The position numbers and the translations under genes were made by a program. Under the pieces are notes generated by a model. The model was not told where the DNA came from, did no database searches, and worked only from the letters and a program-made list of their open reading frames with translations. This document shows positions 4,626 through 61,941 of a stretch of 64,000 nucleotides of DNA, piece by piece. The stretch lies in contig NC_052399.1 in NCBI RefSeq assembly GCF_009389715.1, forward strand, positions 23,135,146 through 23,199,145, given 5' to 3'. The number at the start of each line of letters is the position of its first letter. Position 1 is the stretch's first letter. This DNA is from Phoenix dactylifera. Taxonomy: Eukaryota > Streptophyta > Magnoliopsida > Arecales > Arecaceae.

Positions 4626-6006
4626 AATGGCTCATCAAATGCATATGGTGTACAAGGAAACAAACAACAGATGCATAGTAGTATGAGGTTGAAAAATGCT
4701 TCATCTCCCACAAAACCTCCCCAAAACTTGTTCGATTCATAGTTTCTTTAATGCCAGTAAATCTCACTTGGAAATTATAGCCATCCAATCTTTAATAGAA
4801 TGCCTGCTATCATAGTGTGATATCCATGTTTAAGCAGGAAATGTGTCTCTTTTTGCGCCCAGTAGAAGATAACATTAACTATTTCTTTAAGTTAGATACA
4901 ATATTTTTCTCTGAAGAAAAAAAATATTAGATATGGTATTTACATTGCAGAGAAAGAAAAAAGAAGAAAAATTACTTATTTGATGTTTTGAATGATTCGG
5001 TAAATGATAACTGAACAACTACTTTAATTCAAGAATAACTTGAAAATTAACATAAATTTAAATTTATAACTTGAAACAGGGTTTTTTTTTTCAAAAGCAC
5101 AGCTAGAAAGTAGATGCCTCTTGACATCAAGGCCTCACTTTCTATGATGGCAGGTTTTCTTCATGTTTATTGGGACGAGACAATTCAACCATACCCAAAC
5201 AGAGTCATAAATTTGCTTATGTTCTTGCGATATTCTTTTTTGAGGAACACGTTCTTGTGATATATCAGGGGAAAATAGAGCACTGGTAGAATTCTATGCA
5301 TTACAATAATAGACAAGAAATAAGCAAATTAAGCACTCAATGCAAAAGACTAGAAGAAATGTTGTCCACTGGATGGAGCTATCCAGAGATCCCTTTGAAC
5401 TTGAAGATAGAAACTATCATCAAACCAACTCAAACAACTAGAAAATTAAAACTATGGGTCGCCCATTGGCTCATGATTGCTCAATGATACGTGATTAAGA
5501 TTCCTCATAGCATTCATGATCTCATAATTTATCCAATATCTTCTACCCTGCTTTCATGCTCTCATGGTCATGCATTGAGTAGGTATGAGGAGGATCGGAT
5601 CATGGCAAACCAGAAGATGATCATGAACGTGGAATGCATGTACCTGTTTTTCCTCCATAATGATGTATCTAACACCCTCTGGCCTTCTGATATGTCATCT
5701 CATGTCTATTGATGCAAGCAATGGCCTTTTTATTCAGCAACAATATTGCTAAGAGATGCCAATAGGCAGCCATACAAAGATCCATCTTGTCGGTTTTTCT
5801 CTTGACGTCAAGGCAAAATCTGATAACTAGCAAACGATTATAAGTTGAGAAGCACTGATAAGAGGGGAGAAAGAATGAGATACGAGAGAGCAAGAAATCT
5901 TGTTATTAAGCGCAAAGAATGAGATGAAAGCACATGAAATCCATGAAATGCCAAAATCTTTTTTTTCCTTTTATTTCTTCTATTTTCTTGGAAATCTTGT
6001 TATTAA
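4626..6006. other. PP2C 3' region and intergenic
   Basis: The first 150-200 bases are the likely 3' UTR of the phosphatase gene. The rest is AT-rich. Two short similar stretches, near 5111-5130 (TTGACATCAAGGC) and 5798-5813 (TTGACGTCAAGGC), may be remains of the same element. No gene is seen. Confidence 0.45.
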
Positions 6007-6271
6007 GGACTTGTTTGGAAAATTTAGCAGGATTGGGCTGGATTTTCTATAGGAATCGGGATTCTTAGCCTGCTCAGCTCGTTTTCTTCTAAAAGCCCTG
6101 TTGGACTGCAGGGATAGAAGAAGAGAAGATCCATGGAGATCTTTTTCTTCCTCTCACAAGACTTGGTCTGGAGAAGGATTGGGTTGATACGAGCCTTACT
6201 TAAATAGACTGTGTAATCCATGATCCTATGGAAAATCCAGCCCGATCCTGCTATATTTTCTAAACAGGCCC
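6007..6271. mobile_element. MITE with long TIRs and TAA duplication (PIF/Harbinger-like)
   Basis: The left end GGACTTGTTTGGAAAATTTA and the reverse complement of the right end GGGCCTGTTTAGAAAATATA match for about 50 bases, continuing through AGCAGGATYGGGCTGGATTT. The direct 3-bp repeat TAA flanks the element (6004-6006 and 6272-6274). Length (265 bp), TIRs and a TWA duplication fit Tourist/Stowaway-size elements mobilised by PIF/Harbinger transposases. No coding capacity. Confidence 0.75.
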
Positions 6272-7789
6272 TAAGCACTAAGTTCTGCCACTACGGTCAG
6301 TAAAATCAAGTTATTTTCGCTCATGAGAGGATGAAATTCAACTGATTTCTTCTATGAATAACCCCTCCACCAAGTTCACAGGTCAAAATCCTTTCAGTCA
6401 CAGCCACTGCCAGTGTTTGCCGGCCAGTTTTTTGCTCCATGCATTGTATGCAACTCTTTTTTGGGCACATCCTAATTTTAGTATTGCTAGCTCATGAAGC
6501 TAGACACCTGGCTTCACTACAACTTCTGAAAAGATATTATTCATCTCTTGAGCATTCCCTTGGAAGAGATTCAATTCAGTACATAGGTATACTGAGAATG
6601 GTATACGGAAGGTGAGGACGTTGTTGAAGCTATTGGAAGTGAGGTGGATTGATATGCTGAGATTCAGAACATTGTCTGTTGACATTGAAGCACAAAATCC
6701 AGAAGAGATGTCAATATCCAATTTGTGTGGCTAACAGAGACTCACCATTTCCTTCTTATTGGTTGTTCACCAAATTAGTCACAAGTCATGTGTTCGAGAG
6801 GCTTCAATTTCATTTCTATGAGACCATTTGTCGATACATTGGTTGCTGAATATTATATTGGAAAACTATGCTTTGCAGAGCAAGCACAAGAAGCTATGAT
6901 CATTTACAAAAGAAAATAATAATTGGGGTTTGGGAATCATTGAAGAGTTAGTTCAAACAATAAAGTAGCTCAGATTAATTTGGTCATTTACTCAACAAAC
7001 TTTACTAAACGAACTCAAGAATTCCTGGTTTCAGTAATGGCATTCTTTATTACTTGGTGCTCCCCCTTTAAAAGCTAATTACCTTAATATTTAGATTAAA
7101 ATAAAATATATACACTGTATTATATAAATATAAAAATAATACTGTAACATAATACTAATATAATATTACACTGAACAATAATATCTCATTCATGCATTAT
7201 AATAATCTTATACTATATTAATAACAATAAATGTAATACTTTATATTAAAGTATTGTATTATAATTATTTACTAATAATAGATACATTATGTTATGTTCT
7301 GTTACATTATATCATATAATATTATATTAATAATAATAATATATTACATTATAATAATATTATACTAAGTAATAATAATTTAATGTGTAATAATATGTAA
7401 TGTTACGTTATACTATGCCATATTATACTATGTTACTATCATTATTATATCATAATAATAACCATATTTTAAGAGCATATATTATTATATACTTATAATA
7501 TTATATTATTATATTATTCAAAATAAATAATTTGTAAAATAAGAATATTTTATAACAATAATTTTTAATTGTACAAAGAATTAAAAAATTGAAAGCACTC
7601 TACAATATCTTTTATTATGATTTTGTCATGCTAAAAGCACTTTCTTAATTTTATTACCAACCAAATGCTAAAATTTTGTGACACTTTAGAAGTATAGTTA
7701 CCAAACACCAAATACTTTTTGTTAAAAGCTCTACTGGCAAAAGCTCTACTTCTAAAAGCTTTACTGTCAATAATGGGATAATGGAACAG
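6272..7789. other. intergenic, very AT-rich block
   Basis: From about 7080 to 7530 the sequence is almost pure A/T with TAATAATAT words. After it, 7600-7770 contains AAAGCACT, ACCAACCAAATGC and AAAGCTCTAC motifs like those at ends of plant MITEs, but the matching left end was not found. No gene seen. Confidence 0.45.
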
Positions 7790-8075: not shown

Positions 8076-8898
8076 ATAGTCCTAGAAATTTTGACAACAC
8101 CTATTTTTGAGTATTAACAAAGGAAGCAAGTCGTTTCCTATTTTTATTAATAAAAAATACAATAATTTACAAAGGTCGACAATATCTATTGTTTATAAAT
8201 GTCCTCTTGTTAATTTGCATTATAACCTTGATACTATGGTCTCTCATTTTATTACTAACCATGATTGGAATACTGCACCAATTTGAAACAGGTAATTAGT
8301 GATGACAATGAATAGCAGATCCCTTGACTATCTCCCTTGCTAATTCTGTGGATTGCTTTGATTTGAGGGATACCAGGTCTACTAGGCTAATTATCTTGTA
8401 CAAAGTTTTCCATTCTATATGTGCACCGAAATTGTTATATTTAGCCATCATTAAAGTTCTTTACTTAATATACAATATATATTAATGATATTGGTATCAA
8501 TTTGTACGATGATCATTAAAGCTTGTTGCGCAATATATCATAAAAATTTAGCTATTTAAGTCTTCTGTTTATTATAATTTATTATAAGATCGAGTTGAAT
8601 ATTATAATGATTGTGGTTGGTAGGCGGTCACACGGTGTAGAGTTCTTATCACAACAATAACCACAACAGTAACAACAATTTAGTAATAACAATAACAGCA
8701 ACAACAATGAAAATAATAATGATGGTGATGACAAGTCATGAAATACCATGTAAATTTCATAGACTAATTAGCCAGTGATTGCATGGGTAGGACAAGAAGA
8801 GGAGAGAAACGCATGATGAATAAAAGTTCTATGATCTTAACAATATAAATGCCCCATATTTTAATTCACTTTAACCATTGCTTGAAGTAAAAAGGTCT

Positions 8899-9456
8899 TC
8901 ATTTCCCAAGTAAAAGCGCAATATCCATGCTAATTTGACAGAGTTCGCTCATAATCACATTTCTTTCGGTTAATGGAGATTTGATTTTAGGTGGGGAAGA
9001 ATTGTTGAAAGCTTCCTCGCATGCTGCAGCCTCGTCAGATGCAGTCCCTACCTCAGTCTGAAGGTCATCGTACTTCTTTGAAGCCAGGGACCGGAGAGCT
9101 ATCCGAACAACGTCAATTGCACTTTCGTAATTTTTAGCACATCTAATAAGGCATTTCTTTAGGTTGAGATCACCTGTGTCATTGAACATCCTAGAGACGG
9201 TCTTGAAAGAAGCTGAAGCATAGTCCAAAGAATTCCGTAGTGATATGTTGGTGAGCTGATATAGATCAGCCTTGTAGCTATCAGGATCAGATGACAAAGT
9301 TGAGACACACAGTTCGAAATACTTGGTTGCTTTGCATGCCTGTTGAATCAAATCTGAGACTTCTAGGGGGGTCTCCAATGGATAAGAGAAGCCTGTGGAA
9401 AGAGGAAGATAGAGAAAAAGTATCAAAACAAGAGGGGATGCCATCAGTACTTTCAT
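8899..9456 (-). CDS. pectin methylesterase inhibitor (PMEI/invertase-inhibitor family), 185 aa
   Basis: Intronless gene for a secreted inhibitor of cell-wall pectin methylesterase or invertase; the two cannot be told apart by eye. The start is the ATG at 9456; the frame opens four codons upstream at a TTG, which is unlikely to be used. Residues 1-22 are a hydrophobic signal peptide (MKVLMASPLVLILFLYL). Six cysteines lie at 41, 50, 102, 106, 146 and 173. C41-C50 matches the first PMEI disulphide and C102 or C106 with C146 the second. The TASDEAAACEEAF segment around 138-150 is the typical conserved helix. Length is normal for the family. It lies inside a locally duplicated block. Confidence 0.88.
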   Translation of the reverse strand: MKVLMASPLVLILFLYLPLSTGFSYPLETPLEVSDLIQQACKATKYFELCVSTLSSDPDSYKADLYQLTNISLRNSLDYASASFKTVSRMFNDTGDLNLKKCLIRCAKNYESAIDVVRIALRSLASKKYDDLQTEVGTASDEAAACEEAFNNSSPPKIKSPLTERNVIMSELCQISMDIALLLGK

Positions 9457-9525
9457 TGATCTCTCCAAGGACTAGGATGAAGATCTACATTTCTATTACA
9501 TATATTTAAAGGAGAATCTCGGTTT

Positions 9526-9533
9526 GTATAAAG
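9526..9533 (-). promoter_or_regulatory. TATA box candidate for PMEI
   Basis: On the minus strand TTTATACA lies about 70 bases before the ATG. A second A/T-rich candidate (TTTAAATATATG) is nearer, at about 9500-9511, but leaves little room for a leader. Confidence 0.4.
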
Positions 9534-10222
9534 TTTTCCCTTCATCATATAGATGCCAACATTAATAATTTCAGTAATCATTAAAGTTCATTGCTACGGT
9601 GTTAATGCGCACAATCATCATTAAAGCGTGTTGCTTAATGTGAAATAGAAATTTGACTATTTAAGCTTTATATTTATTATAATTTATTACATCATCAATA
9701 TTGTTTTAAAAAAATAGTTGGAAAAGGGAAAAAAAATTGTACCTTTTAATGACGAGATTTTCTACCCAGATCTCATCTTGTGCAAAATTTTCATTTACTA
9801 TATACATGTTGAAATTATTAATATATCTAGTAATTATTAAAGTTCATTTCTTAATATACAATATATATTAATGATACTGGTATGCATGTGCATGATCATT
9901 ATTAAGGCTCATTGCTTAATATGCAATAGAAATTTGGCTATGTATTTAAACCTTCTATTTATTTTAATTTATTACATAGTCAATATTGCTTTGGAAAAAT
10001 AGTTGGAAAAAGAAGAAAAATTGAACCTTGTATCTCACACTATTCTAGTATTAATGATGAGAGCTTCTACATAAATTTTTCCATTCCATGCTCATGCCAA
10101 AATTATTAATGTATTTAATCATCATAAAAGTTTTTTACTTAATATACAATATATACTAATGATATTGGCATTAATATATACTATTATCATTAAAGTTCAT
10201 TGTTTAATATGCAACAGATTTA

Positions 10223-10310
10223 TATAGAAAGATAGAGAAAAAGCATCAAGACAAGAGGGGATGCCATCAGTACTTTCATCTCTCCGAGGACTAGGATGAA
10301 GTCCTGAATG
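10223..10310 (-). pseudogene. truncated PMEI copy (5' end only)
   Basis: The minus strand from 10279 reads MKVLMASPLVLMLFLYLSI then a stop. This copies the signal peptide of the gene at 8899-9456 with few differences, and the leader GGACTAGGATGAAG is shared too. After codon 17 the similarity ends and the AT-rich repeat unit begins, so the copy lost its whole mature domain. Its own upstream side has TTTATATATCAAGG near 10350. Confidence 0.8.
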
Positions 10311-12787: not shown

Positions 12788-15700
12788 ATGGAGGACCTCC
12801 CTCCTCCCCTTCTTCTGGATATATTGAATCGGCTCAGCGATTCCGCCGACGTCGCCAGGTGCCGGCTCGTCTCCAGGACCCTCCGGTCCCTCTCCTACCA
12901 GGTCTCCTCCGTTAACGTCCTCTGCTCTCGCGACCGATTCCTCCGATCCCGCGCGCCCGAGACCCGGGACCGCACCCTCCCCTTCAAATCCCTCGTCGCC
13001 AACCTAGTCTCCCTCCACTCGGCCGCCCTCGACTCCCTCTCTATCGGCGTCGAGAGGCCCTCCGCCGCCGGCGCCGCCTGGGAGGAGGACGACTTCGACG
13101 ACGCCGACGATCTCCACCTTACCGCAGTAGGTTTCCTGTCCCGGTGGCTGCCCCTCGTGGGCGGAAGGCTGAGGTCGCTCTCCATCTCGGATTTCTGGAT
13201 CCAGTCCTGCTGGCGCCGATCCGGGGCGCTGGGTCTCATCTCCGATCTCTGTGAGCCTTCTTGAACCTTGCTTATCTCTTACTTTCTTACGATGGCTAAT
13301 TATTTCCAGAAATTGCTTTCCGATGATTTTTTTCATCGATCAAGATAAATGGCTAATTAAAGAAAACAAAGAGGAAGAAGAAAGAGGGGCAGATTTGGAA
13401 AAAAGAAACGAACGTCAGAATTTTAAGCTCTCTTTACCTAGAATTGCCTAGAAAACCGAAAACAGCCTGGGAAGGCACATGTTTTCTGATTCGATTGGGT
13501 GTAATCGTACCCGTATTATATGAAATGCCCGCTTTAGCGGAAAAAAAAGGCACATGTTTAACATAAAAGAACCAAATTGGACTCAAACCGACGAATATTA
13601 AGAATCGAAGAAAAAGAAAAAAAGAAAAGAAAGGGGAGCTTTTTTTTGTGTGTAATGCATGTTGAACTCAAGCAAGCCTTCTTTCCCAGTTTGTAGCAAA
13701 ATTGTTACTTATTATGTTGGCTTTATCCTCCTGATACAGACTAGGATTATCGTAGTTTAGATGCAAAAGAGAGCTTGCTTTATAATTATAATCATCTATC
13801 CTTTTCCCAACTATTTGAGGTTGAATCTTTGTTTCCCAAGTATTCCTATCCGGACCACTTCTGATGTTATTTCAAGTTTCTCCATATTCTTTCTCTAACT
13901 TCCATCCATTTTAATTAAGGTTTTCTCTTCCGTTCTCATCTCCTCATCTAAAATTAATCTAATAGCTATTAGTCTATCACTATGTACAATCTTTCTGTCA
14001 TTTCTTCATCTATCTATCTCAATTATCATCCTTACCTAGATACAATAGTTTACTTCTATCCCTACTTCGAACATTTACTGTCCCTTCATTTAGTTTATTG
14101 TAAGAAAACAATATTGATTCTGCTACATGTCATCATATCCATGAGTTTTCTGCTTTTTTTCTTTTGAAGTTTCGATATTTCAAGTGGCAAATCTTTTTTT
14201 TTCTTTTGTAGGGTAATCTTTGCATGATGTAATTTTTCTTGTCTTCTTATCACTCTATCTGACTGCCACTGTACAAGGTTAAAACTAGAAGACCCCCTAA
14301 TCTTGAATAATCTTTGCTCATTTGTTATTAGAAACTGCTTATATTATAGCACATTGGTTATAGGTAATACCTTGACAACCCTTGCTCATTTGTTATTACA
14401 TTCGGTTTGCGTTGCAACATGGTTTTTTTACGGATAAAGACATGGTCTGCCGTACCGCCTCATACCAGACGGTACGGTACGGGAGAAAAAACCAGCATAG
14501 AACTTAACTTCAAGTCGGGACTAGCTTTGTACAGCCCCGTACCGAGGTGTACCGACCTATACCGAGGTGCGTACCGACCCGTATCGAGGCGTACTAACCT
14601 GTATCGAGGCATGCCGAGATAAAATTTAAGAAAAATTGTTAGAGAGCTATTTCGGTACAAGGATGTATTGTACTAAACCAATACGATACATTGCGGACTT
14701 TGGATAAAGACCCAGCAAACCCTAGTCCACTTCTCGTAACAATTGGGTCAAGTTGTGGCGTATTGCATGGTACAATGGATGCTCTAATATTTAACATGCG
14801 TATTAAATTTGGATCTGTTTCATAGTTTTTGACATATATTTTATGAGTTGCTAGCAACTTGATGTCAACCTTCTACTTTTCTCATCTGGGCTTGGGTCTA
14901 GCAACAGGGATGTCAAGCTTACGTGATACTACAAATTGGATTTAAGCTTAAGTTTCGACATTTCTGTTGATTGTTACATTTTTCCTGGTTAAACATAAAC
15001 ACGTACTACATTGCCGCATAATAGATGACTAATGGATAGTTGATGTGTTCTGATAGGTTTTTGGTGGAAAAAGGGTGACATGTAGAGTTTTGAAAAAGAT
15101 GTTCGTTTTGAATGATCAACTCCTGCGGGTTTCCTTGCATTAGAAATAGTGGTGGTTCTAACCTTGATAATATAGTGTAATGTTTTAACACCAGATTAAG
15201 AATGCAAGCTTAGCAGTTGAGTAATGGGAATTTCACAAGACAAAATGCTTCTGTGCTAATTCCTATGGTAAAGATAAGAGCTTCTAAAGGTGATGATATC
15301 CTTCTCAACTGAGTCAAAAAAGCTGGATTGAGGACAGAACCAATAATTTAAGTTAAATATTGTGAGTTGTGACCTAAATGCAGTAAATTTCTTATCTTGC
15401 ATTCAGATAAAGTTCCTTTATTCATTGCAATGGAAAGGTTTCTCCTTTTGGATATGCATGTCCTTTCTTGGGTGGATAAAAACTGTCAATCATCTTAGCT
15501 TGGTCTTCTGAACACTCTAAGCATGTGCTGAGGTATCTGCAGGATAGCTGGGACACCAAGGTCTAAGGGAAAAGTTCTCATGCTAAACTTTATTTCACCC
15601 TTTGTACGCCTATACAAGTATACATCAATCCCTTCTGTAGTTTTTCTAAAAGAGAGTCTTATGTTGCATAGGTAAACTAAATGTTGGTTGAAGGGAAGAA

Positions 15701-27200: not shown

Positions 27201-30200
27201 TCTGTCCTAAGCTTCGAAAACCCAGAGATTCTTAAAATACCAAGCCTTTTGTGATCTAATAGATAAATCCAGAGCCCTAACTGCATCAATTTGGGTATGA
27301 GAGCAACTAAGCATCCTTCTACGGCAAAATTTGATATAATGATATAGAAGTCCCCTTCCAGCACCAGTCAATCTCTAGAAGAAATCTCTGGTTTTAATTT
27401 CCACCTACATCATACCCTTCTGCTGGATGCATCTTATCATGTATATCAAAGTTTCAATCAATCTTCATGGGGGTATGGGGAGGGGGTTTACAATTTTTGG
27501 TGACACCTAGCAAACAATAGATGACGGATAGGTTGATGATTACATGTTTACTCAAAACTTTTGTTTGTGTAGCTAGAATCCTCAGAATTGCATTTTTATC
27601 AAAAACAGGCAGAGGAATGCAAGAAACAAAAAACTTGTAGAAAGATAAGAATGATTAACCTTAAGAGTCATATAATCACGACTAAGGATGTGCCTTCCAT
27701 GCTTTGCAAATTTTATATCCGAAATTGAGGCAACAATCTCGGTAAATGAGTTCCTTGGACCAGGTTCTGCATGTTCCTCAAACCTGTGTGGAAGGATATG
27801 TCACTAGCTAATGCAACAAAATATATGCAAATCAAAAATTTTGAATAAAATACTAGTGTGGAAAGAAAGTTATTATTAAAGATGTGGAGTATAAGATCAT
27901 CTAGTAACATGAAGAACTAAGTATAAGAATATTACTTACAACATAGAATGGTTGTCACATAATGCTGACTGTCGCAAATCAATAAGCCGGATGGAACCCC
28001 TTGAGCTACTGTATGCTAGCATGTTACAGTGTGATGGATGGAACTCAGCAGATGTTATCACCTCTGAAAATGTAAGTAATGTTACAATCTAGAACATTTA
28101 TAATCACTTAAAAGCAAAAGATAACATAGAGAATGCAAAAGCCAACCATCCATACAAACTGCTACTTAAACATCACATAATTAAGGACAAGAATCTAACA
28201 ACAAGAAAAAGAATTTCCTTTTTTCATAAAGAAAAGAAAAGGAATTTCCATGTCATGCAAATATATTAATAACAAGCAGAATAACTGTTTAGAGTTGTAC
28301 AAGAAGAATTAGGGTAATGATGCTACAAAATATGAAGAAAATATATTCCATATACAAGAAACATAGTAAACATGAATAATCTGGCATCAAACACCAAACA
28401 ATATTTGAGGACATCCATGACAGTTAGTTTCAAAAGGCAATATTCAAAACACCTGATATCACCATCTCTATTTTTTTTGCCTTCTGAATGAATTACACAA
28501 AGTGAATAAGTGGGAATTAATCAGATTATCCTCATTTTTCTAGCAGACACCATGCTTCCAAGTTAAGAAAAAACCTTGTCTGGACAGAAATGTTGTATGA
28601 TGAAGCAAAATAAAGTTCATAACTTCATATCTTACGAGAAAAATTACAATGTGTAAAACAGCAGTCCACTATTTCTGCTTGAATAAAGCATATCTTCAAA
28701 GCAGGGACTGCTGAACCGAGTCGGTTCGCCATTAGAAAACGGTTCTGGCCATCTAGGGGCCGGAGCTAGCTGGAATCGGACGATTCCGTCTGATTCGACT
28801 CGAATTCAGCCCCCTGTGGGGGTTGCACAACGGGCTACCACAGCCCGCTGTGGCAATTATGGCTTCTGATTATGCTGATAATCCGGATATCTACGAGAGA
28901 TATCACCACTCGACCCGATTTTAGATATTATTATGTATGTTTGTTGAACTTCAAAAGTATGTAATTGATTATATCTTGATTTGAAAATATTTTATGTTGT
29001 TCATTTTATGATTTATTTTTTTTTAAAGCAATAAGATGCATCATCTAGCTTAAATCGGGATCATAGAAACATCGAAAAACATCAAATTAGACTTAAATTT
29101 ATAGAAAAAGTTCGAAAAGAGAGAAAACTCCCAAAAAAAAAATAGGGTGTGCCGATGCGTAAACCGGCACGCCCAACTGGTTCGGTTCGGTCCAAACCGG
29201 TGCCGAACCGTACCGAGTGCCGACCAGTACGGCACCCAGTACCGGTTCAGCGATCCTTGCTTCAAAGTTAGTCTAAGTTTTCCTTCAGAATGAAAACATA
29301 TTCTGAATGTTCTGAATGTTAAACATATATACTGAAGAAACATAAATACAAATATTATAACCTGTAAGGACAATTTTGATGTATGAAAGGGTTTCCAATG
29401 TTCATCATACTAGCACAGAGCATTTCTGCTTGATAGGGATTCCTTCTTTATAAAAAAAAATGTTTTTGGAACTAAAATAAAGCTCGAAACACTAGACATA
29501 TGACTGATTTTCAAGCCATGATTTCAAGAAATGGGTTACAACATTTGGAAAGCAGAAAAAGGAAGCCCATATGCATGGTGTTCTACTACGTCCACTCAAT
29601 TAGGAGTGCTTAATATTCACCTCAGACAGGCACTGAGGCAGGGGGAAAGATGAATCACATGTAAAGGCATGTTCAATAGATCCACATTTAACAAAAAGTA
29701 GATGACCACTGAAATTCTGGTTCTGTGGAGAATTTGCAGGAAGAGGTTGAATTTTGCACCCATGCAAAATTCAAGTAGAGCAACTAACTCCTGGGCATGG
29801 ATTTTCCTCTCAATTACAGTGTTTCTATTGTATCTTAACTGATATAACTTTCACTACATATAGGCATTATTTGGTAAGCTGCATTAAATCTCATAACCCG
29901 AGCAATTGTGGATGCGAGTTTGCTTAAGGCCAGCTTGCTTGAAAAAAGGCACTTTCTGTTTGGAAGACCTTGCTTTAACTTAGAAGTAATGCTATTTAAG
30001 GCAAAAATTTCAGGTTGATAAATACCAGCTGGAAAAGCTGCCTTCATATAGAGAGACTAAACCAATTTGCTGCAACTCACTTCATAAACATCTGACATAG
30101 TCAACCAACAGTATACAGAACATCATTCTAGTTTCTGCTGTAAAGAAATAACTCACTCAATCAATAGTTCCTTTGAGATTCAAAAACTAGATGGGCTTCA

Positions 30201-36200: not shown

Positions 36201-36970
36201 TCTTAAGCCCATCTCAGTAGCTCCGATTCCTCCGACCTCTTTTCATGTGAGAAGTTTTCGACTCTCTTTATCGCCAGCCAAGAAGTAAACTAAAGCTGTC
36301 ATTAAAGGAAACAGGATGACTACCAACAGGTTGACTTATATACTAACAGGTTTACTTATATATTCTGATGAGATGATCGCATGCCAGAACCATGCACAAA
36401 AAAAAGGGGGAAAAACTAACTATTTCAGTGGTGAAACAGATGATCGCTAGATGATTACAGTGGAAACAAACATCAGCCAATGTCAACTCGCATAGCTCGC
36501 ATAGAAACAGTTTTCATACTATCGATTCCACCCAAGTTTCAATCTTTTTCTATAGAAGTGCAGTAATGCATTAGTCCACATCAATTTAATCAAGATTTCT
36601 TCCTTCTCTAATAAACCCCAAAACGGATGTCGTAAATATTTATCAAAAAATGTAACATCAAATTCAGAAGAAAAAAAAAGAACAACCGATTAGAAAACAA
36701 CCAACGACCGCAGTACCAGAACTAAGGGATTCCAACCAAAATAGTTGAAAATTTTTTCCAGAGAACCCTAAGCTCCAGTCCCGACCATCAAGAACCACAA
36801 GGCGTTCTAAATTGAGTAGATCTTGAATGGATTGAAAGCATAAACACCGTACCTTCTTGGACCTCCTCTCCGGCCGTCCGTTCACCGAAGACCTGCGAGA
36901 ATTTCCATTCCAAGGTCTGCGGCGGGGACGCCGCGGACCGCCCGGCCTCCTCCGCTCCATTCCCGTTCAT
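24252..36970 (-). CDS. PP2A 55 kDa regulatory subunit B (B55, WD40), 14 exons, 513 aa
   Basis: B-type regulatory subunit that targets the PP2A core enzyme to substrates. Exons 5' to 3': 36970-36853, 34348-34245, 34156-34061, 33970-33851, 32623-32420, 32230-32139, 30475-30357, 28063-27940, 27783-27660, 26129-26061, 25946-25855, 25608-25531, 24585-24518, 24385-24252. All frames join, giving 513 residues, the length I recall for Arabidopsis ATB-alpha. Diagnostic blocks: [121 protein letters not shown], ending [11 protein letters not shown]. Together they form the seven-bladed propeller. A Ser-rich variable loop lies in exon 5. The final exon has a second possible acceptor (24403), adding six in-frame residues. 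Introns carry a hAT-like MITE. Confidence 0.96.
26931..26990. repeat. 30-bp tandem duplication in a PP2A-B intron
   Basis: AGCAATTATTCTTATTCAGA plus ATTTAATGAA occurs twice head to tail (26931-26960, 26961-26990) with one or no difference, a recent local slip. Confidence 0.85.
28694..29267. mobile_element. hAT-like MITE in the PP2A-B intron, with 8-bp target duplication
   Basis: The element is 28702-29259 (558 bp), flanked by the perfect 8-bp repeat CTTCAAAG (28694-28701, 29260-29267). Its left end CAGGGACTGCTGAACCG and inverted right end CAAGGATCGCTGAACCG match at 13 of 17 positions. CAGGG start and 8-bp duplication are hAT hallmarks. The right part has GGTTCGGTTCGG and GTACCG motifs shared with the elements at 14441 and 46874. 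It lies in the intron between exons 7 and 8 and has no coding frame. Confidence 0.88.
30652..30692 (-). other. partial copy of PP2A-B exon 12 within an upstream intron
   Basis: CCAAATATACGAAATA and TACCTCATT (plus strand) both occur in exon 12 and its donor (25525-25608), about 55 bases further apart there. On the minus strand the copy would read LFRIFGC followed by AATGAG/GTA, as in exon 12. It looks like an exon fragment with an internal deletion, sitting between exons 6 and 7. Probably not spliced, since no acceptor adjoins it. Confidence 0.45.
33432..33458. repeat. (GA)n microsatellite in an intron
   Basis: About 13 GA units in the PP2A-B intron between exons 4 and 5. Confidence 0.95.
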
Positions 36971-45830: not shown

Positions 45831-46873
45831 GGTTGTGGTTTTGTTTAAAGCTTGTATCTGACATGTCCTAGACCTGGCTTTAGTTTTTTTCATTTAACAA
45901 TAAATTTTATAAAATGATTTCGATGTAATAATATTTGGTTCATGTTGCAATTAGATTGTTTCTGCTGAATCCATATTGGCAGTTGAGCTGTGAGGGGACG
46001 TGCGAAGGTGGCGTTACGCCTTAATATCCTCAAAGCTACCAAAAAGGATGGAAGGAGACTCAGATCAGCTGCAAATGGAAGTATCGAAAGAGTAAATCCT
46101 TCGCCCTTGGGCAATGATGGCTACACTCAGGTGAGTTCTGCACAACTCATGTACACAGGCAGATGGCCTCCAGAGCGAGTTTTGGTTTCAGAGTTTCCTG
46201 CTTATCTGATCTGTGTAATTGTGGCTGATGCATCTAGTTGTTTGTTTCCTTGAGTACAGTGGCTTCGGGTGTTCACCCTCATATTTGCTGTCCAAAGCCA
46301 CAGTTGCACTATGAAAAAATATTTGCATGCTAGTTTTTGTGATCAACGAACTTTTTTTCTTTTGGCCTTTTTCTTCTACCATGCTAGAAGCAATTTTTAA
46401 TTAATATTTCCAAACTTTTATTTTTCAAAAAGTGCTTTTCTGCTTTAAAAGCCATAAAAGTGCCTTTTTAAAGCAATATCAAACACGTTGGGCAAGTTCT
46501 AGACTTGTAACAGGGTATCCAAAGAAATGCTAGATGTGCAAAGATAGTACTCTTTGGATAAACAATAAGCAAACAGATGCCACAACTTCAACGAAATATA
46601 CAAAATAGGTGCCTTTACCATAATCCACCAACCATATTACACCAAGTCGAGGGAGCTGATATTAAAATTTAACATTATTTTTGAGTCAAATCTTATTCTA
46701 AAAATTATTTAGCTCCATTTTCATACAATTATTTTTTGGGGTAAGCTAGCACAGCAAATGCACAAAAGTTGTGAGTTTGTTGGCGTGCATATGCACGAAC
46801 GCACGCTGATACTTTGAGTTTATGTGTTATTGGAAAATGACGTTTAGATAAAACATCTTGTGCTACTCTTATC
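45831..46873. other. spacer with one exon-like frame
   Basis: Between about 45985 and 46131 the plus strand has a polar open stretch (RAKVALRLNILKATKKDGRR, then NPSPLGNDGYTQ) that ends at CAG/GTGAGT, a good donor. No neighbouring exon fits it and I do not recognise the sequence; it may be an exon of an unseen or lost gene. Otherwise nothing is seen. Confidence 0.25.
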
Positions 46874-47537
46874 CAAGGTCCACCGTACCGGATCCGGTAG
46901 GCGTACCGGTTGCCTACCGGACCGGTACGGGCCGGTTCGTACCGTGCTCCGGGCGGTACAAACCGGGAAGCTCTTCCCCGCCGGAATCGGGGAAGAAGAA
47001 GAGAACCAGAGAGCGCGGGGAAGAGAGGGAGAGAGCCCACCTTCGGCCGCCATCGGAGAGCCGCGGAGGGGCGTTCGAGGCCGGTGGGGGGCGGCGGAGT
47101 CTGCGGGGGAGCTGCGGAGGCCGTGGCCGCGGCCGCGTCCACTGTTTCGAAAGAAACAGGGGATGCGGCCGCGTTTTTTAATTTAGGGATTTTAAGTGAA
47201 GTCGGCAAATCGGTTGCCGACTTCACTTAAAAATCCCCAAATTCTTTCGAAACAGTGATGCGGCCGCGGCCTCCGCAGCACCCCCGCGGGCTCCCCCGTC
47301 CCCTGCCAGGCTCCGCCGCCCCCCACCGGCCTCCGACGCCCCTCCGCGGCTCTCCGATGGCGGCCGAAGGTGGGCTCCCTCCCTCTCTTCCCCGCGCTCC
47401 CTTTTTTTCTCCTCGTCTTCTTCGTCTCTGGCAAGGAACCGGCCTGTACCGGTTTCCACGGCTCCGCCGTACCGATAGCTGGCCGAACCGGTTTGTACCG
47501 GCCGGTACGGGCCGGTTCGGCATACGCTGCTCTTATC
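46866..47537. mobile_element. fold-back hAT-like element with 8-bp target duplication
   Basis: The element is 46874-47529 (656 bp), flanked by the perfect 8-bp repeat CTCTTATC (46866-46873, 47530-47537). Ends CAAGGTCCACCGTACCGG and, inverted, CAGCGTATGCCGAACCGG share the GTACCG/CCGAACCGG theme of the elements at 14441 and 28702. The interior is a giant inverted repeat: 47191-47208 pairs perfectly with 47214-47231 across a 5-base loop. Outward, blocks such as ACTGTTTCGAAAGA, GAGGCCGGTGGGGGGCGG, CTTCGGCCGCCATCGGAGAG and GCGCGGGGAAGAGAGGGAG recur inverted on the other arm. Arms differ by small indels, including about 25 bases. The many long frames here are GC artefacts of the hairpin. Confidence 0.88.
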
Positions 47538-48275: not shown

Positions 48276-48505
48276 CTCGATTAGATAATAAAAGAGTTTC
48301 AAAACAATCTGTACTCTAGTGGTTCACATACGTCTATCATCTTGAAAGATCAAATTTAAAAAAAAAAAAAAGATTCACCGAATTGGCTCCGATTAAGCCC
48401 TTTGATATTTAAGTCGGAAAAGAAAAACTCTGAGGAAACAACAGAGGAACCAACAAGAAGACTAAAGAAAATAAAGATGGTTGAAAAAAGAGTTCCACTC
48501 TTTCT

Positions 48506-48994
48506 TTAGAGCTCGTTTGGTTCGCGGAAAGTATTTTTCTTTCTAAAAATATAATTCCTGAAAAATAGATTCATAGGAAGAGGATACCTAGGAAAGTACT
48601 TTTGGCATGTTTGGTTGACCATGGGAAAGTGACAAATTTCTAAGGTGCTTATGTTTGGTTGCCCATCCACTTTCCTGAAAAAGTTATGTATAATTTCTAT
48701 TATACCCTTAATAAAAATTAGGTTTTTAATACCTCTTTAATGCTTCTTTAATGCTGAATAATCTTTTTGGAAAAAAATAAAAATAGAGTGATTCCTATCT
48801 TATGGGAAAGTAACTTTTCTATGTTTTTCATGGGAAAGACTTTTCCATAAAATATGCAAATCATATTTCTATTAGAATACAATTTTTTCGTCTCTCTCTT
48901 TTAAAAACTCCAACCAAATAAAAGACATCCCATTATTTTTTTATTGATCATATTTTTTTTTTTCTTTTTTTCTCGCAAACCAAACGAGCCCTTA
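48506..48994. mobile_element. Tourist-like MITE, copy 1
   Basis: The element is 48509-48991 (483 bp), flanked by TTA (48506-48508, 48992-48994). Ends: GAGCTCGTTTGGTTCGCG and, inverted, GGGCTCGTTTGGTTTGCG. TTA duplication and TIRs fit PIF/Harbinger-mobilised Tourist elements. Interior words such as AAAGTACTTTTGGCATGTTT and GGTTGACCATG are shared with copy 2 at 56614. No coding capacity. Confidence 0.87.
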
Positions 48995-56246: not shown

Positions 56247-56610
56247 GGCTCTCCGTCCTCCGCCTTCCGCCTTCCGCCTTCGAGGGCCGTTGCGGTTGAC
56301 TCGAATGCGGCTAATTGATGCCCGCTAGCTTCGGATTGTCGAGTCACTTGTAGACTTGGAGTGCAGTCTGATCGGGTCCGGTCGGGTCAAGTCTAGCTAC
56401 CTCCGGATCCTAACCCGCGGATTTGATATCCACATTTGGATCCAAATAGTTGGGAATTGGATCAAATCAGATGGGAATCGGATCCAATAACTAGAGTGAT
56501 CCATCTTTGGATCCATACCCAATCCTTGGGCTATGTGCCAAATCAAGTACCTAATGTGTCTGGGTTAGTATGGGTCCATTGACTTCCCTAGTATTATTAT
56601 TACTTCTTTT
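56247..56610. other. 5' flank of the saposin-like gene; GGATCC-rich relic
   Basis: The first ~100 bases are leader/promoter. From 56370 to 56560 the sequence is dense in GGGTCCGG, GGATCC and TTGGATCC words, typical of non-autonomous hAT remnants in plants, but no terminal repeats were found. Confidence 0.35.
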
Positions 56611-57086
56611 TTAGGGTTTGTTTGGTTCGCGGAAAACATTTTTTCTCATAGTCATAGGATATGATTTTTGGGAAGCAGATTTTTGAAAAGAGGATGTCCG
56701 AAAAAGTACTTTTGGCATGTTTGGTTGACCATGAAAAAGTGACAGATTTTCAGAGTGCTTATGTTTGGTTGATTATCCACTTTTCTGGAAAAGTTATGTG
56801 TAATTCCTATTATACCCTTAACAAAAATTAGGTCTTTAATGCTCGGTGATAGCGGAAGGGTTTTTTTTTTAAAAAAAAATATTTCGATTTTTGGCTCATA
56901 GAAAAGTAACTTTTACATGTTTCTCATGAAAAAGACTTTTCCATGAAATGTGGGAATCATATTCCCACGGAAATACAACTTTTCCGTTTTTTTTTAAAAA
57001 AAAACTCCAAACAAATAAGAGGCATCTCTTTATTTTTCCGTTGACCACACTTTTCCTCTTTTTTTCACAAACCAAACGAGCTCTTA
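56611..57086. mobile_element. Tourist-like MITE, copy 2
   Basis: The element is 56614-57083 (470 bp) with TTA at 56611-56613 and 57084-57086. Ends: GGGTTTGTTTGGTTCGCG and, inverted, GAGCTCGTTTGGTTTGTG. It aligns along its whole length with copy 1 at 48509 in the same orientation. Confidence 0.87.
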
Positions 57087-61797: not shown

Positions 61798-61941
61798 CAT
61801 GCGTATCGATTGTTGAGTAAGCCGGAGGTCTGCAGAGACCATGCGCATCAATTATTGAGTAAGTCGGAGGTCTGCAGAGACCATGCGCATTAATTGTTGA
61901 GTAAGCCGGAAGTCTACAGAGACCATGCGCATTAATTGTTA
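61798..61941. repeat. 42-bp tandem repeat, ~3.4 units, in the LTR
   Basis: Units begin with CATGCGYATC at 61798, 61840, 61882 and 61924 (partial). Each contains TTGAGTAAGYCGGARGTCTRC and differs by a few bases. Period 42 keeps frame, which explains the repetitive open frame on the minus strand. A second set of short GAGGTCGGGCGC units follows at 62025-62105. Confidence 0.93.

Follow-up and report, generated by a model that had tools for sequence, protein, structure and literature searches.

The element and its setting

The window analysed here is a stretch of 64,000 nucleotides of Phoenix dactylifera contig NC_052399.1, with a GC content of 38.5%; its GC-rich exons and the style of its repeats are in keeping with a commelinid monocot, possibly a palm. 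A GC-rich element (GC 0.66), hereafter E1, lies in it between genes: in gene models that we drew ourselves from the open frames, a coding stretch stops 3.3 kb before E1 (43526), and the next ATG considered (49310) follows 1.8 kb after it. Exact 8-bp direct repeats abut E1 on both sides, as had been claimed in an earlier sequence-only reading of this DNA, and the related terminal repeats proposed in the same reading were found as well, since the two ends match at 11 of their first 17 positions. The features of the locus are:

46866..46873, no strand: left target-site duplication CTCTTATC, read directly from the sequence, with an exact copy at 47530-47537
46874..47529, no strand: focal element E1 (656 bp), too short to be autonomous, delimited by flush 8-bp repeats and family ends
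46874..46979, + strand: left end of E1, CAAGGTCCACCGTACCGG plus TACCGG subterminal repeats, forming local hairpins in the + strand RNA fold
47011..47208, + strand: left arm, inverted repeat proper; includes a side hairpin (47131-47170); placed by alignment to the reverse-complemented right arm
47209..47213, + strand: 5-base loop
47214..47399, - strand: right arm, inverted repeat proper; includes a diverged tandem repeat with a 20-bp unit
47433..47529, - strand: right end of E1 (inward CAGCGTATGCCGAACCGG) plus TACCGG subterminal repeats
47530..47537, no strand: right target-site duplication CTCTTATC

Pfam returned no family for seven translated stretches of the window, two of which were overlapping parts of E1. 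Being short, without a Pfam family in the two overlapping frames and bounded by inverted-repeat ends, E1 has the make-up of a MITE (short, non-coding, with inverted-repeat ends). One arm is open in some frames, with a possible start codon. Capture of a gene fragment was considered but is not our preferred reading, since Pfam was empty and the right arm consists of diverged tandem copies of a 20-bp unit.

Folding of E1

The hairpin of E1 is real and far from chance, because its fold energies beat those of all shuffles and the two lowest-energy tiles of the window (425 tiles of 300 nt each) lie in or over it. RNA of the + strand folds at -522.3 kcal/mol (z -21.3), giving the low-energy long stem that the sequence-only reading had proposed to look for; the corresponding values are -516.0 kcal/mol (z -23.9) for RNA of the - strand and -305.2 kcal/mol (z -24.5) for DNA. 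In none of the three cases did any of 20 dinucleotide shuffles fold as well.

In the + strand RNA fold the main stem runs over 46980-47432 and comprises about 170-177 pairs; the long hairpin that had been predicted is present, although shorter than the few hundred base pairs then expected. The earlier description of the element as almost wholly an inverted repeat was overstated, as 177 of the 273 pairs span the centre, and the outermost 106 bases on the left and 97 on the right pair locally, bar a 3-bp helix (46877-46879 / 47471-47473). When RNA of the - strand is folded, 197 of 262 pairs span the centre and part of the outer bases pairs across, and some outer bases also pair across in the DNA fold. 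The inner perfect stem measures 19 bp (47190-47208 / 47214-47232) around a 5-base loop; the loop size had been read correctly, while the stem had been given as 18 bp within 47191-47231. Further inverted blocks had been noted outward, beyond 47000 and 47400, and arms of 130 nt with 86% complementarity are indeed found there (46997-47126 / 47284-47413). The left arm carries about 26 extra bases, which form its side hairpin, and the tandem repeat of the right arm occupies 47264-47356 with 4.6 copies.

Divergence of the arms

When the left half of E1 was aligned to the reverse complement of the right half, 247 of 290 ungapped columns were identical. The inverted repeat proper (about 47011-47208 / 47214-47399) has 161 identities in 173 aligned columns, gaps set aside, and a K2P distance of 0.073. 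By alignment columns, identity was 68/89 (columns 0-119), 18/28 (120-149), 86/90 (150-239) and 75/83 (240-365). The ends have diverged more than the inverted repeat, with 21/89 columns differing (0-119) versus 12/173 (150 on; P 0.0003), a test from which the 28 aligned columns at 120-149 were excluded; between the near-perfect block at 150-239 and the inner part there was no significant difference (P 0.24).

The likeliest history would begin with a Ds-like element whose ends had already diverged from each other when one of its internal segments was duplicated in inverted orientation. That the inverted repeat is younger than the ends is a soft conclusion, because the outer alignment within the subrepeats is uncertain.

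Related elements in the window

A scan of the window for CA...TG ends with flush 8-bp repeats gave a single hit, the element E3, and missed both E1 and a further candidate, E2, which was found by reading the sequence around the other GTACCG-rich places; 3 of 20 shuffles also gave one hit each, so the scan is not significant alone.

28702..29259, no strand: related element E3, 558 bp, with duplication CTTCAAAG at 28694-28701 and 29260-29267, from the scan and an out-of-sample end profile
14441..14702, no strand: probable related element E2, 262 bp, with duplication GATAAAGA at 14433-14440 and 14703-14710

End profiles were then scored with one element left out at a time. Among 127,966 positions, 4 and 7 scored as high as the two ends of E1, and 6 and 10 as high as those of E3; E2 has a strong left end (5 positions) and a degenerate right end (2633), the latter being excluded from all facing-end profiles. 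Pairs of two facing ends with an exact flush 8-bp repeat recovered E1 from the profile without E1, and E3 from the profile without E3, at all three cut-offs, and E2 was not recovered from the profile without E2 at any of the three. As a register control, the profile without E1 at the middle cut-off yielded no pairs in 10 wrong registers versus 2 in the right one.

The sequence-only reading had called for a second copy sharing the ends, and E3 provides one within the window, limited to the ends: its body is different and it is closed by a short terminal stem only (fold -197.7 kcal/mol, z -9.0). Consistently, blastn of E1 against the window gave matches only inside E1, whose body has no second copy there. 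E2 folds at -85.3 kcal/mol over its full length of 14441-14702, an energy without shuffle control; the stretch 14441-14682, which stops short of the right end, reached z -2.4, with 1 of 200 shuffles as good. The flanks of E2 match over 10 bases, so that its duplication can be read as up to 10. We regard E1 and E3 as a single end family, an assignment that is well supported, and E2 as a probable member of it.

The distribution of the short repeats was also compared. Nine of the 10 occurrences of TACCGG in the window fall inside the three elements (eight in E1, one in E3, none in E2); when the elements were shuffled 2000 times, 0.7 fell there on average and never more than 6. Of the 49 occurrences of TACCG, 21 lie in the elements (11 in E1, eight in E2, two in E3).

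Sequences of the arm, loop and ends were also sought in viral contigs by three exact-pattern scans, which returned 0, 0 and 2 stretches; the two matches look like chance, as the 400 bases read there contain no additional GTACCG. Within the window, a lone lookalike of the family end, CAACGACCGCAGTACCAG, occurs at 36702, where the 2 kb downstream contain no second copy of the flanking 8-mer AAAACAAC; it is probably a chance occurrence or a truncated element.

Proposed assignment to the hAT superfamily

Elements of the hAT superfamily have the end consensus YARNG. In E1, E2 and E3 the 8-bp target-site duplication is exact, five of the six ends read CARNG and all six read CA..G; TACCGG stands as a subterminal repeat near both ends of E1 and occurs once in E3, E2 having TACCG instead. 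The hAT-like nature claimed in the sequence-only reading is supported by the flush duplications, the CA..G ends, the subterminal TACCGG and the finding of E3 by an out-of-sample profile. We conclude that E1 is very probably a non-autonomous hAT-like transposon, of MITE or Ds type, likely to have been placed by a hAT transposase from elsewhere. E1, E3 and E2 (656, 558 and 262 bp) are taken as non-autonomous because they are too short for an Ac-like transposase of ~800 aa. With regard to the target sites, the Hermes pattern nTnnnnAn (excerpts of PMC10368747) matches one of the three duplications (CTTCAAAG), and the duplication of Ds can be almost any 8 bp, as stated in the portion of PMC3260210 available to us. 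Points that weigh against the hAT reading are the limited agreement between the two ends of E1 (11 of 17 positions), the fit of the Hermes pattern to only one duplication, the failure to recover E2 out of sample and the chance-level outcome of the simple scan.

A hAT transposase supplied from elsewhere would recognise the ends and repeats of E1, and the inverted repeat of the body would travel as its passenger. A transcript crossing E1 would be expected to form a hairpin of ~170 bp, which Dicer-like enzymes may process into siRNAs, as is usual for the hairpins of MITEs according to published descriptions; we ascribe no dedicated function to this hairpin.

Alternative explanations

The stem of E1 is long, stable and nearly perfect, and MITE hairpins have been documented as sources of 24-nt siRNAs or MIRNAs (excerpts of the reviews PMC10004981 and PMC12595863, and of PMC3086885), which speaks for a functional small-RNA locus, where the hairpin would be transcribed and kept by selection as a precursor of siRNAs or of a MIRNA, and the transposon would be merely its origin. 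We find this improbable, as the arm mismatches are symmetric, with 12 G-U and 12 A-C on the + strand (8 and 6 from column 120 on), and this equality indicates no preserved RNA pairing on either strand; selection at the RNA level was considered, and mismatch symmetry does not reveal it. Moreover, Rfam 15 gave no match at gathering score over the window, hence no known precursor family as would be expected of a plant MIRNA gene, and a permissive search of E1 alone produced 21 weak matches, all under the family gathering score, the best being MIR4240 (36 bits versus 200). The observed/expected CpG ratio is 1.11 in E1 versus 0.60 in the window, and thus carries no sign of long methylation-driven decay; the flanks have 0.34 and 0.70, and although TACCGG itself contains a CpG, the inverted repeat alone still reaches 1.01. 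Transitions in the arms show no clear excess at CpG columns (3/46 versus 4/125 elsewhere), and E1 sits between genes. Mismatch symmetry, CpG content and Rfam, all of them indirect signs, thus give no support to the source of siRNAs or young MIRNA suggested in the sequence-only reading. It is similarly doubtful that E1 is a hAT-like element now turning into a small-RNA gene, in which inverted duplication inside a GC-rich Ds-like element would have made the long hairpin, siRNAs would silence copies of its own body or a gene sharing that body, and the TACCGG ends would stay mobile; siRNAs from the stem would miss E2 and E3, because within the window the body is carried by E1 alone.

Elements of the Mutator type (MULEs) are known to have long inverted repeats rich in GC, with duplications of about 8-9 bp, and E1 could be read as one of them with long terminal inverted repeats. 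This is very unlikely, however: E1 and E3 have duplications of exactly 8 bp (that of E2 being readable up to 10), all six ends begin with CA..G, which MULE ends do not resemble, and the inverted repeat of E1 is internal, the extreme ends being the less similar part. Hairpins have been described as arising from inverted copies that lie next to each other (excerpts of PMC3086885), so E1 might instead be two transposons lying side by side in opposite orientation, or else a fold-back artefact of the assembly. Both are hardly credible, since one pair of duplications encloses the whole of E1, the family ends are absent from its centre, and 12 of 173 aligned arm columns differ, in addition to gaps, which would not be the case for an artefact from one molecule.

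Comparison with known elements

Read as a hAT-like transposon, E1 is of a kind already known. Its family closely resembles Ac/Ds of maize, above all the Ds1 and Ds-like filler-DNA class, with 8-bp duplications, short imperfect ends and subterminal repeats. The available excerpt of PMC3260210 describes for Ac/Ds 8-bp TSDs, C/TAGGG ends, subterminal hexamers and many short derivatives with little but ends in common, and the members of the E1 family likewise have their ends but not their bodies in common; the left end of E3 starts CAGGGA, comparable to C/TAGGGATGAAA of Ac. The E1 family differs from Ac/Ds in its end sequence past the first bases and in its repeat, TACCGG rather than AAACGG, and E1 in its body of 66% GC with a long internal inverted repeat. 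Plant hAT-type MITEs, reported from almost every one of 207 plant genomes (excerpts of PMC12550479), are like E1 in size, in being non-coding and in their superfamily-type ends and duplication, whereas E1 stands apart by its strong, GC-rich hairpin. With the MITE-derived siRNA and MIRNA hairpins of plants (PMC10004981, in part) E1 has in common a palindromic transposon whose transcript would be self-complementary. Finally, Hermes, a hAT element of the housefly, has an 8-bp duplication, 17-bp imperfect ends and subterminal repeats bound by the Hermes transposase (excerpts of PMC10368747), but it is autonomous and from an animal, in addition to the difference in target pattern mentioned above.

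A literature search met no description of the E1 end family, which may already be named in Repbase or plant TE libraries, and when four DNA words from the ends were used as queries, no title on plant transposons appeared among the matches listed. This work documents a hAT-like end family (CA..G...CYGWACCG, with TACCGG repeats) having two well supported members and a probable third in 64 kb, one of which, E1, has a body turned into a long hairpin. E1 is a structural case. Copies like it offer a way to study how Dicer substrates may be created by inverted duplication within transposons, and are useful as such because a low proportion of miRNA-like hairpins was reported for maize hAT elements in the part of PMC10760457 available to us.

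Other repeats in the window

A second hairpin element, of 265 bp, lies at 6007-6271, with inverted ends GGACTTGTTTGG / GGGCCTGTTTAG and TAA repeats at 6004-6006 and 6272-6274; the fold of 6001-6290 reaches -128.7 kcal/mol, and in appearance it resembles a Tourist/PIF-Harbinger MITE. Several partly overlapping direct repeats of 75-90% identity occupy 8393-10301, near a 190-aa open frame (8899-9471). A dispersed direct repeat pair was found at 48499-48994 / 56605-57086 (75% identity over 507 aligned bases), and a tandem repeat with a 42-bp unit, 3.4 copies and 91% matches at 61798-61940.
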